NCBI RefSeq assembly: GCF_023923205.1
Contig: NZ_CP099490.1
Location: 2,170,001 to 2,234,000 of the forward strand
Length of the DNA stretch: 64,000 bases
Reading direction: 5' to 3'
Source of the DNA: Ornithinimicrobium cryptoxanthini
GTDB taxonomy: Bacteria > Actinomycetota > Actinomycetes > Actinomycetales > Dermatophilaceae
The notes beneath the pieces are model-generated. The model saw only the letters and a list, made by a program, of their open reading frames with translations, had not been told where the DNA came from and ran no database searches. The position numbers and the translations under genes are program-made. This document shows positions 21,753 through 46,365 of this stretch, piece after piece; the first letter of the stretch is position 1; each line of letters opens with the position of its first letter.

Positions 21753-23591
21753 TCAACTCTGCTTCGGGTTGACCTGCTCAGCGCCCAGCGGTGCCGGTGT
21801 CCTGGACTCCGTGGTGGACTCCGGCTTGGCATCCACGCCAGCCTCCTTGCGCTGCTGCGCCGTGATCGGCGCGGGCGCCTCCGTCAGCGGGTCGAAGCCG
21901 CCACCGGACTTGGGGAAGGCGATGACGTCGCGGATCGACTCGGTGCCGGCGAGCAGGGCCACGATGCGGTCCCAGCCGAAGGCGACCCCACCGTGCGGCG
22001 GGGCACCGAACTTGAACGCCTCGAGCAGGAAGCCGAACTTGTCGTCGGCCTCCTCCGGCGAGAGCCCCATGATGCCGAAGACCCGCTCCTGGATGTCGCG
22101 GCGGTGGATTCGGATCGAGCCACCACCGATCTCGTGGCCGTTGCAGACCAGGTCATAGGCATAGGCCAGCGCCGAGCCAGGGTCGGACTCGAGGCTGTCC
22201 AGGAACTGCTCCTGCGGCGAGGTGAAGGCGTGGTGCACCGCCGTCCACGCGCCGCCGCCCACGGCGACGTCACCCGAGGCGACGGCGTCACTGGCCGGCT
22301 CGAACAGCGGGGCGTCGACCACCCACAGGAACGACCAGGCGGACTCATCGATCAGCTCCGCACGCCGACCGATCTCCAGACGGGCCGCGCCGAGCAGCGC
22401 CCGGGAGGCCTTGGTCGCCCCGGCGGCGAAGAAGACGCAGTCGCCGGGCTGGGCACCGACGTGTGCCGCCAGTCCGTCGCGCTCTGCGTCGGAGAGGTTC
22501 TTGGCCACCGGACCACCGAGCGTCCCGTCCTCGGCCACGGTGACATAGGCCAGACCCTTGGCCCCGCGCTGCTTGGCCCACTCCTGCCAGGCGTCGAACT
22601 GGCGCCGGGGCTGAGCCGCACCGCCGGGCATGACGACCGCGCCGACATACTCCGCCTGGAAGACCCGGAAGGGGGTGTCGGCGAAGAAGTCGGTGCACTC
22701 GACGAGCTCCAGCTCAAAGCGCAGGTCAGGCTTGTCCGTGCCATAACGTGCCATCGCGTCGGCATAGGTCATCCGGGGGAACGGCGTGACCAGCTCGATG
22801 CCCTTGACGGCCCAGACCGCCTTGGCGATCACCTCGCCGAGCTCGATCACGTCGTCCTGCTCAACGAAGCTCATCTCGATGTCGAGCTGGGTGAACTCCG
22901 GCTGCCGGTCGGCGCGGAAGTCCTCGTCCCGATAGCAGCGGGCGATCTGGTAGTAGCGCTCCATCCCGGCCACCATCAACAGCTGTTTGAACAGCTGCGG
23001 GCTCTGGGGCAGGGCATACCAGCTGCCCGGCTGCAGGCGGGCGGGCACCAGGAAGTCGCGGGCGCCTTCTGGCGTGGACCTGGTCAGCGTCGGGGTCTCG
23101 ATCTCGACGAAGTCACGCTCCGCCAGCACGTTGCGCGCGGCGGCGTTGACCTTGCTGCGCAGGCGCAGGTTCTGCCCGGCCGCGTTGGCACCCGGACGAC
23201 GCAGGTCGAGATAGCGGTGACGCAGGCGTGCCTCCTCACCGACGGTCACCCGCTCGTCGATCTGGAACGGCAGTGCCTCGGCGGCGGACAGCACCTCGAT
23301 CTCGGTTGCGACGACGTCGACGGAGCCGGTGGGCAGGTCGGGGTTGACGTCCTTGTCCTCGCGGGCGGTCACGTCCCCGACGACGCGCACGCAGTATTCG
23401 CTGCGCAGGTCGTGGGCGGTGCCGGTCAGCACCTCGTCGCGGGCGACGACCTGGACGATGCCGCTGGCGTCGCGCAGGTCGATGAAGGCAACGCCGCCGT
23501 GGTCCCTGCGGCGGGCCACCCAGCCGGTGAGGGTGATGGTGGTGCCGACGTGCTCGGATCGAAGCGTGCCGGCCTCGTGGGTGCGAAGCAT
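21753..23591 (-). CDS. aspS: Aspartyl-tRNA synthetase
   Basis: A 612-residue class IIb synthetase of the bacterial type, with N-terminal OB anticodon-binding domain ([19 protein letters not shown]), the catalytic core split by a GAD insertion, and motif 3 near the C-terminus ([10 protein letters not shown]). A C-terminal tail of about 30 polar residues ([14 protein letters not shown]) is an extension. The ATG at 23591 follows GAGGAGA. Whether it is discriminating for Asp or also charges tRNA-Asn cannot be decided here. It is controlled by the T-box leader directly upstream, and the strong hairpin at 21681-21715 ends the transcript, so it is monocistronic. Confidence 0.97.
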
Positions 23592-23658
23592 GAGGTCTCC
23601 TCTCGGGTCGCAAGCGCTGGAGAGTCGCCCCCAGCACTGACGATTGGGCAAGCCCGGG

Positions 23659-23811
23659 AGGTGCGGGCGGGGGCCAGATCGCGGTGCCACCACACCTTTG
23701 CCGAGGGGACCTCGGCCTCTCGTCGTCGACCGGGCTCGAGCCAGGTCCGCCGGACGCGCGGTGCGCGGGTGAGTCGGCCTGGGCCGCCTCGGGTGGATCG
23801 TCACTCCACCC
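23659..23811 (-). promoter_or_regulatory. T-box riboswitch upstream of aspS (tRNA-Asp specific)
   Basis: Read on minus. A 7-bp hairpin GGGTGGA/TCCACCC (23791-23811) has the 7-nt loop GTGACGA, presenting the Asp codon GAC: an ultra-short stem I. A 6-bp hairpin GCCGAG-GTCCC-CTCGGC (23700-23716) is the stem III equivalent. The antisequestrator then follows: helix A1 AGGTGTGG (23697-23690) with CCGCACCT (23666-23659), the 7-nt bulge TGGCACC (23689-23683), helix A2 GCG (23682-23680) with CGC (23669-23667). The variable base of TGGN is C, complementary to G73, the discriminator of tRNA-Asp. There is no U-tract before the ATG, so control is probably of translation: uncharged tRNA-Asp would free the GAGGAGA ribosome site. 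Confidence 0.88.
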
Positions 23812-23825
23812 CGGGCACGGCGCCC

Positions 23826-23831
23826 ATTCTA
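23826..23831 (-). promoter_or_regulatory. -10 element of the aspS T-box transcript
   Basis: TAGAAT on minus lies 14 bp upstream of the stem I hairpin, placing the transcription start just before the riboswitch. The -35 is weak. Confidence 0.55.
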
Positions 23832-23978
23832 CGACCCCGTGGGCGGCCTCGGCACCACGTTTGTCGCGCGGGCCGTCGGCTCCGGCGACGGCAGCCTGAC
23901 CTGCAACCTTCTGCCGCGTCGCCGCGTGTGGAGAGATAGAAGCACACCACCGGACGACAATGAGGGCAGGAGGGACCG

Positions 23979-24479
23979 ATGAGCCGGAATCAGGCGGAGC
24001 ACGACTTCGAGGAGTTCTATGCCGCGGCGGCACCGAGAGTGGTCCATCTCGTCTATGCCACCACCGGTGACATGACGATCGCCCAGGACAGCACGCAGGA
24101 GGCGTTTGCCAGGGCCTGGCAACGCTGGACGACCATCCGCGAGTATGACGAACCGCTGGCCTGGGTGCGCACCGTCGCCAGGCGCCTGGCCATCTCGACC
24201 TGGCGCAAGCAGGGTGCGCAGGACCGGGCCTATGTGCGACACGGCGCGACGGCCACCAGCGAGGGTCCCGGCGTCGACCGGGTCGCTGTCCGCGCAGCGC
24301 TCCAGACACTGAGTGACCCGATCCGTGAGTCGGTCACCCTGCACTACATCGCCGACCTGTCGATCGAGCAGATCGCCCGGGAGACCGGGGCAGCCGTCGG
24401 CACCGTGAAGTCCCACCTGCACCGCGGTCGGCGCCAGCTCGCCGACGCGCTCGAGATCAAGGAGAACGACCATGCGTGA
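23979..24479 (+). CDS. ECF-type RNA polymerase sigma factor
   Basis: A 166-residue sigma-70 family protein of the ECF/SigE-like size. Region 2 is at the N-terminus (DFEEFYAAAAPRVVHLVY, then DSTQEAFARAWQRW), and region 4 is a C-terminal helix-turn-helix (SIEQIARETGAAVGTVKSH, about 131-149). The ATG follows AGGAGGG. It overlaps the next gene by 8 nt, the usual arrangement for a sigma factor and its membrane anti-sigma partner. Confidence 0.92.
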   Translation: MSRNQAEHDFEEFYAAAAPRVVHLVYATTGDMTIAQDSTQEAFARAWQRWTTIREYDEPLAWVRTVARRLAISTWRKQGAQDRAYVRHGATATSEGPGVDRVAVRAALQTLSDPIRESVTLHYIADLSIEQIARETGAAVGTVKSHLHRGRRQLADALEIKENDHA

Positions 24480-41040: not shown

Positions 41041-41159
41041 GTCCGGCGGTGTCCTACTCTCCCACACCGTCACCAGTGCAGTACCATCGGCGCTGAGAGG
41101 CTTAGCTTCCGGGTTCGGTATGTGTCCGGGCGTTTCCCTCTCGCTATGGCCGCCGTAAC
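41041..41159 (-). rRNA. rrf: 5S ribosomal RNA
   Basis: On minus the 119-nt gene runs from GTTACGGCGGCCATAGCG to GGACACCGCCGGAC; the terminal GGCGG/CCGCC stem, CCGAACCCGGAAG loop and GATGGTACTGC segment are typical of actinobacterial 5S rRNA. It lies about 117 bp after the 23S 3' end. Confidence 0.97.
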
Positions 41160-41276
41160 TCTATGGAGATGTCAAACCATTCTGGGCCCACCCGGGACAC
41201 CACGTGTGTGGTGTGGGGGTGGGGTTTGTGGTTCGTATCTCGGGAACCACACAGTGGACGCGTGTCATCTTTGTTG

Positions 41277-46365
<5,089 letters not shown>

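Follow-up and report, generated by a model that had tools for sequence, protein, structure and literature searches.

Locus and organization of the aspS leader

The window, namely the whole stretch of 64,000 nucleotides of Ornithinimicrobium cryptoxanthini that was analysed, carries on its minus strand an aspS gene (21753..23591, start codon ATG at 23591-23589) encoding a bacterial-type aspartate--tRNA ligase (AspRS) of 612 aa (NCBIfam NF001750, 837 bits). A divergent ORF on the plus strand (23979-24479) looks by eye like an extracytoplasmic-type sigma factor, and because it starts at 23979, positions 23592-23978 were taken as intergenic. An rRNA operon (16S, 23S, 5S) is located at 41041-46363 on the minus strand.

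Reading of the sequence revealed a leader of T-box layout on the minus strand, extending from a -10 box (TAGAAT, 23831-23826) to the aspS ATG, with transcription probably starting at about 23818, the G of GTG. Downstream of TAGAAT follow GTGCCCGG, a hairpin carrying GAC, a second hairpin, CCGCGCAC, CGCGCGTCCGGCG, and a further hairpin, and then ACGAGAGG, stem III, AAA, the antisequestrator, CCTCCCGGG, 45 nt, CCCGAGAGGAG, and the ATG. The specifier hairpin, corresponding to the upper stem I (GGGTGGA-GTGACGA-TCCACCC, 23811-23791, minus strand), was delimited from the sequence and an alignment of relatives; its stem comprises 5-7 bp, and its apical loop, of 7 nt in the window, holds the specifier GAC at 23802-23800. 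The second hairpin (23771..23790), whose sequence and length vary among relatives, is an insert in the junction that surrounds the specifier hairpin, on the 3' side of that junction. Stem III (GCCGAGG-TCC-CCTCGGC, 23716-23700) has 7 bp, and the antisequestrator (23659..23697), supported by sequence and alignment and by the nearly identical cores of L071 and L073, consists of the parts that the initial annotation had described: helix A1 (AGGTGTGG/CCGCACCT, 23697-23690 with 23666-23659; 8 bp, one of them U-G), the bulge TGGCACC (23689-23683), and the 3-bp helix A2 (GCG/CGC, 23682-23680 with 23669-23667), both helices being assigned by complementarity.

Predicted specificity for tRNA-Asp

The host tRNA-Asp, read from its sequence, has the anticodon GTC and G73, and therefore both GAC and UGGC fit it, in agreement with the earlier proposal that the bulge C matches the discriminator base of tRNA-Asp. 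The leaders found before IleRS ORFs had UGGU in 35/35 cases and UGGC in none; tRNA-Ile carries A73. A second T-box in the same genome, outside the window and before ileS (L291, G000:C1:2711300-2713000), is class III-like: its bulge has UGGU, its loop has ATC, and the S-turn motif GGAAGAAC..ACTAGAACC is present. Among 29 of the 30 loci found with the Rfam T-box model RF00230, 21 had UGGU, three had UGGC, and five had no core by pattern, and the three UGGC loci (L264, L275, L278) carry AspRS-like ORFs. Other UGGN forms of the core gave 23 matches, and the inspected ones with N other than C seem to be chance matches in coding sequence. Separately, a leader in another family (L236) combines GAATCCACTCCC with UGGC before a seryl-tRNA synthetase-like ORF and is possibly Ser-specific.

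Conservation and covariation

The folding energy of the leader is unremarkable (z -0.77; 43/200 shuffles equally stable), and the evidence for it is therefore comparative. The T-box parts stand in the order initially annotated between the -10 box and the aspS ATG. BLAST with the leader found it before aspS in 25/30 same-genus relatives and gave matches in 31/58 genomes overall, own included; of the five matches outside the genus, one (L029) reads as a T-box leader. In the remaining five same-genus genomes, aspS starts with GTG behind a short leader in which the T-box core was not found, and the distribution within the genus is patchy. Across the 26 aligned leaders (own and 25 same-genus), the core is almost constant, and neither TA..T of the -10 box nor the GT that follows it by about 7 nt shows any change. 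TGACG is invariant upstream of aspS in all 26, which upholds the claimed Asp specifier GAC in the loop GTGACGA; row selection required TGACG[AC], which was present at all 26 genus BLAST loci. A purine follows GAC throughout, but it is not independent evidence, as the pattern demanded TGAC[AG].

With the columns kept fixed, the 26 leaders have 98.5% of their 650 cells paired, and four pairs changed on both sides; three of these belong to stem III, and the fourth, in stem I, is U-A in the window vs C-G. Slid structures paired in only 34-51% of cells on the same alignment, and letter shuffles reached the observed values in 0/500 for four of five pairing measures and in 17/500 for the fifth (further pair types). 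The hairpin annotated as stem III-like thus covaries, and the compensatory changes for which an alignment of relatives had been suggested were found there and at one pair of stem I, but A1 hardly varies: seven of its eight pairs and all A2 pairs are unvarying in the 26 leaders. Since these pairs scarcely vary, the support for A1/A2 comes from complementarity and from the T-box match. In 101 wider sequences, part of which were chosen by the A1/A2 motif itself, A1 showed a single flip from U-A to A-U and a single C-G form, and 2/101 alter the 5' strand. Stem I and stem III pair counts in the wider set were not used as covariation, because the hairpins there were picked by complementarity. The wider set comprised 114 distinct leaders, of which 12 failed the loop and distance filter, leaving 102 ultrashort leaders; L218 was left out as a probable misassigned leader of the long type.

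A helix closing the junction around the specifier hairpin

The initial annotation described an ultra-short stem I, which holds for the ultrashort specifier hairpin itself but not for stem I as a whole, as a helix absent from that description, here called P0, closes the junction around it. Its 5' strand GTGCCCGG (23811..23818) faces the 3' strand CCGCGCAC (23768-23761), both strands being supported by partner-swap tests. In the window, 7/8 P0 pairs form with one C.C mismatch, and P0 is missing from the thermodynamic MFE, so that the window P0 rests on comparison; a fold made to contain P0 and stems I and III is less stable (-123.0 vs -130.1 for the unconstrained MFE of the window fold). Examples of P0 pairs in relatives are GTTCGTAG/CTACGAAC (L046), GTCGTCGG/CCGACGAC (L049), GTGCGCAG/CTGCGCAC (L024), and GTGCGCGG/CCGCGCAC (L002).

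Free-register duplex energies were noisy in this GC-rich sequence (mean rank 0.38, permutation 1/2000), and a fixed register was adopted for that reason, in which the segment before CGCGCG was paired with the leader's own 5' segment or with those of other leaders. Anchors were present in 72/114 distinct leaders, which were thinned at 75% identity to 57 representatives. These scored 4.80 with their own partners vs 2.88 +/- 0.21 with swapped ones (0/5000 permutations as high), and the 33 aspS-type leaders scored 5.71 vs 3.54 +/- 0.26. Within groups, the permutations, which ignore kinship, gave 24/5000 (16 same-genus), 0/5000 (17 aspS-type from other genera), and 6/5000 (24 aspS2-type); L066, with a mis-set hairpin, stayed in these tests, and its group's result stands without it. 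Neighbouring registers also gave 0/5000 for the whole set, which therefore does not fix the register exactly; in the aspS2-type subset, offsets -1, 0, and +1 gave 1188/5000, 9/5000, and 0/5000, respectively. RNAalifold on MAFFT alignments returned neither P0 nor the sequestrator. The partner-swap results show that P0, which closes the junction around the specifier hairpin in ultrashort leaders, covaries.

The insert between the specifier hairpin and the P0 3' strand folds at z < -1 in 39/46 cases tested (mean -2.4), all of them of at least 14 nt; 11/57 inserts are shorter, six of these being 4-7 nt long, with 4 nt in L067 and 6 nt in L069. As a separate observation, the inserted hairpin contains CATAC in 15/26 and GGCATAC in 12/26 same-genus leaders (e.g., L018, L022, L023).

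Downstream of P0, a possible pseudoknot in the place of IIA/B could form from CGY/RCG, its CGU loop, and a more distant ACG. In the window, alignment places its first part at 23748..23760 (CGC/GCG, 23760-23758 with 23750-23748; loop CGU, 23756-23754), and the ACG (23723-23721), with the purine run GAGAGG 5' of stem III (23716..23723 together), is invariant or nearly so in the 26 leaders. One pair of the first helix is mostly C-G, also U-G and U-A, in 72 leaders, although 3/72 (CCAGCG) and some blocks with at least one extra base misfit the fixed register. The putative second helix is invariant across the 26 leaders. The F-box CCGUCA, as named in the available passages of PMC7583486, was absent from the leader by reading.

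Distribution and association with two AspRS types

Model R1 matched 70/186 genomes of the family, own included, with 44 matches before bacterial aspS and 26 before the archaeal-type aspS2, as judged by the ORF N-terminus. At the level of the order it matched 17/248 genomes, and at that of the class 12/296, own included. In addition, at least 118 stretches matched the antisequestrator pattern; among the matches listed (80 loci), 61 precede aspS2, eight aspS, and 11 neither, several of these 11 having a mis-picked ORF. Judging from these sequences, related leaders before aspS or archaeal-type aspS2 occur in other Actinomycetes. The archaeal-type copies at L098, L103, and L106, which are complete and lie outside the family, pass the aspartate--tRNA(Asn) ligase cut-off, and L083, ended by the locus edge, falls just under it. 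In the family genomes G033 and G034, the core was found at aspS2 and none at bacterial aspS. Genomes with two AspRS genes (L305 and L306 with L082 and L083) have the T-box core at the archaeal-type gene and not at the bacterial one.

Comparison with known T-box classes

The initial annotation looked to RF00230 for recognition of the leader, but the search gave only chance-level matches and no T-box match at E up to 10, and none was obtained at E up to 1 for 12 ultrashort leaders. The same model matched the long-stem-I aspS2 leaders L073 (1.3e-7), L080 (1.3e-4), and L071 (0.0018) over all 219 model positions, below the gathering score, and did not match L082 and L083, the other two of five long-looking leaders tested; within the class, 100/197 genomes gave a match with an E value of 0.001 or less, in no case above the cut-off of the model. 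The antisequestrators of L071 and L073 are nearly the same as that of the window, a likeness taken to mean that the 3' part has a common origin. The missing match reflects the reach of the model, and a match to it is not a defining part of a T-box.

The published passages on T-boxes describe translational members at actinobacterial ileS, four classes, and truncated stem I elements that need stem II (PMC7583486, PMC10482949, PMC10651847, PMC1262725, PMC2494555, PMC9413887, PMC7778990); according to the accessible part of the review PMC7583486, truncated stem I's scarcely bind tRNA without stem II. PMC9413887, in the part available, cites Vitreschak 2008 for T-box control of various synthetase genes in Actinobacteria and Firmicutes and names a T-box at the Corynebacterium glutamicum his operon, so that non-ileS T-boxes are not new to the phylum as such. 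The passages of PMC7778990 apply the class II model to Actinobacteria and tabulate Asp specifiers without taxa. The literature search found no paper on an actinobacterial aspS T-box, TBDB entries being outside its scope.

Compared with the class III ileS T-boxes of Nocardia farcinica and M. tuberculosis, as far as the published passages describe them (PMC10482949, PMC7583486, PMC10651847), the aspS leader shares a short stem I, an apical-loop specifier, the lack of an elbow platform (not seen in any of the ultrashort leaders), a putative pseudoknot in the IIA/B place, stem III, a UGGN antisequestrator, and likely sequestration of the Shine-Dalgarno (SD) sequence. It differs in its Asp rather than Ile specificity, in UGGC vs the UGGU of the ileS leaders examined here, in its apical loop (7-9 nt vs 5-6 nt in those passages; 9 nt in 86/114 distinct leaders, with a script favouring loops near 8), in the P0-closed junction, and in that neither the S-turn motif nor a K-turn was seen. 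Similarly, the apical specifier, the stem III region, and the UGGN antisequestrator are common to the leader and L291 of the same genome, which differs by AUC, UGGU, and the presence of the S-turn motif. The ileS-like architecture proposed for the leader stands as regards the apical-loop specifier, but more than a change of codon separates it from the ileS type, because the S-turn motif of the host's ileS T-box was not found in it.

An ordinary class III T-box of the ileS type, switched to an Asp specifier and discriminator and with a normal but divergent stem II, would account for the apical-loop specifier, the short stem I, the IIA/B-like pseudoknot, and the occurrence in Actinomycetes, all of which are class III traits in the passages of PMC10482949. 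However, one regular expression found the S-turn pair in 0/102 ultrashort aspS/aspS2 leaders vs 25/35 ileS leaders, the host's own included, even if it could miss a divergent S-turn, and the inserted hairpin lies inside P0 rather than after stem I, and measures only 4 and 6 nt in L067 and L069. This reading is considered improbable, and owing to the S-turn count, the leader was not filed as class III.

Two further groups of leaders bear on the comparison. The long-stem-I aspS2 leaders (Micromonospora, Kribbella, Paractinoplanes) resemble the aspS leader in a near-identical antisequestrator and an Asp specifier (GAAGAC), with aspS2 downstream in those assigned, but differ in their long stem I and AGTA..GAAGAC specifier loop, 18/62 having the S-turn pair. 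The compact aspS2 leaders of Terrabacter and Humibacillus (L077, L116, L117) share the GAC apical loop, UGGC, stem III, and anti-SD/SD, but are only about 110 nt long, with a K-turn-like base (CGGC-GAC-GA..GA-GCCG), and by eye show neither stem II nor a pseudoknot; together with L078 and similar loci, they are possibly very small T-boxes. Classes I, II, and IV have a long or intermediate stem I that carries the specifier in a side bulge or an internal loop, whereas the aspS leader has it in an apical loop. The plan of this leader, with no elbow platform, no S-turn motif, and a P0-closed junction around the specifier hairpin followed by the putative IIA/B-like pseudoknot, differs from the four classes as described in the published passages and is new relative to them. 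Most likely, the leader is of the general T-box kind and a new structural variant, not class III as defined.

Antisequestrator and the proposed translational switch

By complementarity, the anti-SD arm CCTCCCGGG (23653..23661) overlaps the A1 3' strand and could pair with a sequestrator 3' arm CCCGAGAGG (23607-23599), which reaches into the SD GAGGAG (23602-23597). Uncharged tRNA-Asp would base-pair at two points, through its GUC anticodon with the GAC of the apical specifier loop and through its GCCA end with the UGGC of the bulge. Such binding would stabilize A1/A2, which retains the anti-SD strand CCGCACCU, leaving the SD free for more AspRS synthesis. With charged tRNA-Asp, the 3' end would not be held, the anti-SD may pair with CCCGAGAGG, and translation would fall. 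In this scheme, tRNA binding, sensing of charging, switching, and its sign are inferred.

The SD was findable in 100/102 leaders. The sequestrator passed the partner-swap test in the aspS2-type leaders (-17.63 vs -16.57 +/- 0.28 kcal/mol; 26 representatives, 0/5000) and failed it in the window's aspS type (-10.29 vs -10.63 +/- 0.29; 21 representatives, 4419/5000 as good), where the SD stretch is almost constant and leaves little room for covariation. The pooled support (0/5000; rerun 1/5000) was rejected as an artefact of mixing the two types. Because the sequestrator failed within the window's own type, confidence in the T-box reading was lowered slightly. Constrained folds of the window in the ON and OFF states differ by about 1 kcal/mol (-125.7 vs -126.8), both being less stable than the unconstrained MFE, in which A1 is kept paired and P0 and the sequestrator are absent.

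Transcription attenuation, which is the mode of most annotated T-boxes in the available text of PMC7583486 and would sit well with the unsupported window-type sequestrator, is very unlikely here, as no terminator with a U run was seen by eye between the antisequestrator and the ATG, and the sequestrator covaries in the aspS2-type relatives. Translational control is the likeliest mode, by analogy with the ileS and aspS2 relatives. Leader structures through which synthetases regulate their own genes are known from other bacteria, but a conserved structure in the AspRS mRNA that acts without tRNA binding, for example as such an autoregulatory site, is scarcely credible, given the T-box hallmarks (UGGN bulge, A1/A2, stem III, and their order), the RF00230 matches to relatives with nearly the same antisequestrator, and the presence of one core before two distinct AspRS types.

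Implications for AspRS regulation in Actinomycetes

Taken together, the comparative evidence argues that the aspS leader is very probably a tRNA-Asp-responsive T-box, most likely translational, with tRNA binding and regulation deduced from its sequence. Whether it also represents a fifth T-box class, in which a P0-held GAC hairpin reads tRNA-Asp without an elbow platform or S-turn stem II, in many Actinomycetes (aspS, aspS2) and with an additional K-turn form of about 110 nt, is an evenly balanced question. A conserved T-box that lacks both the elbow platform and the S-turn motif raises the issue of how the 3-bp codon-anticodon contact is held, and P0 with its junction is perhaps another solution to it. 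Such leaders would document the control of AspRS, including a second, archaeal-type AspRS, by T-boxes that the Rfam model misses.
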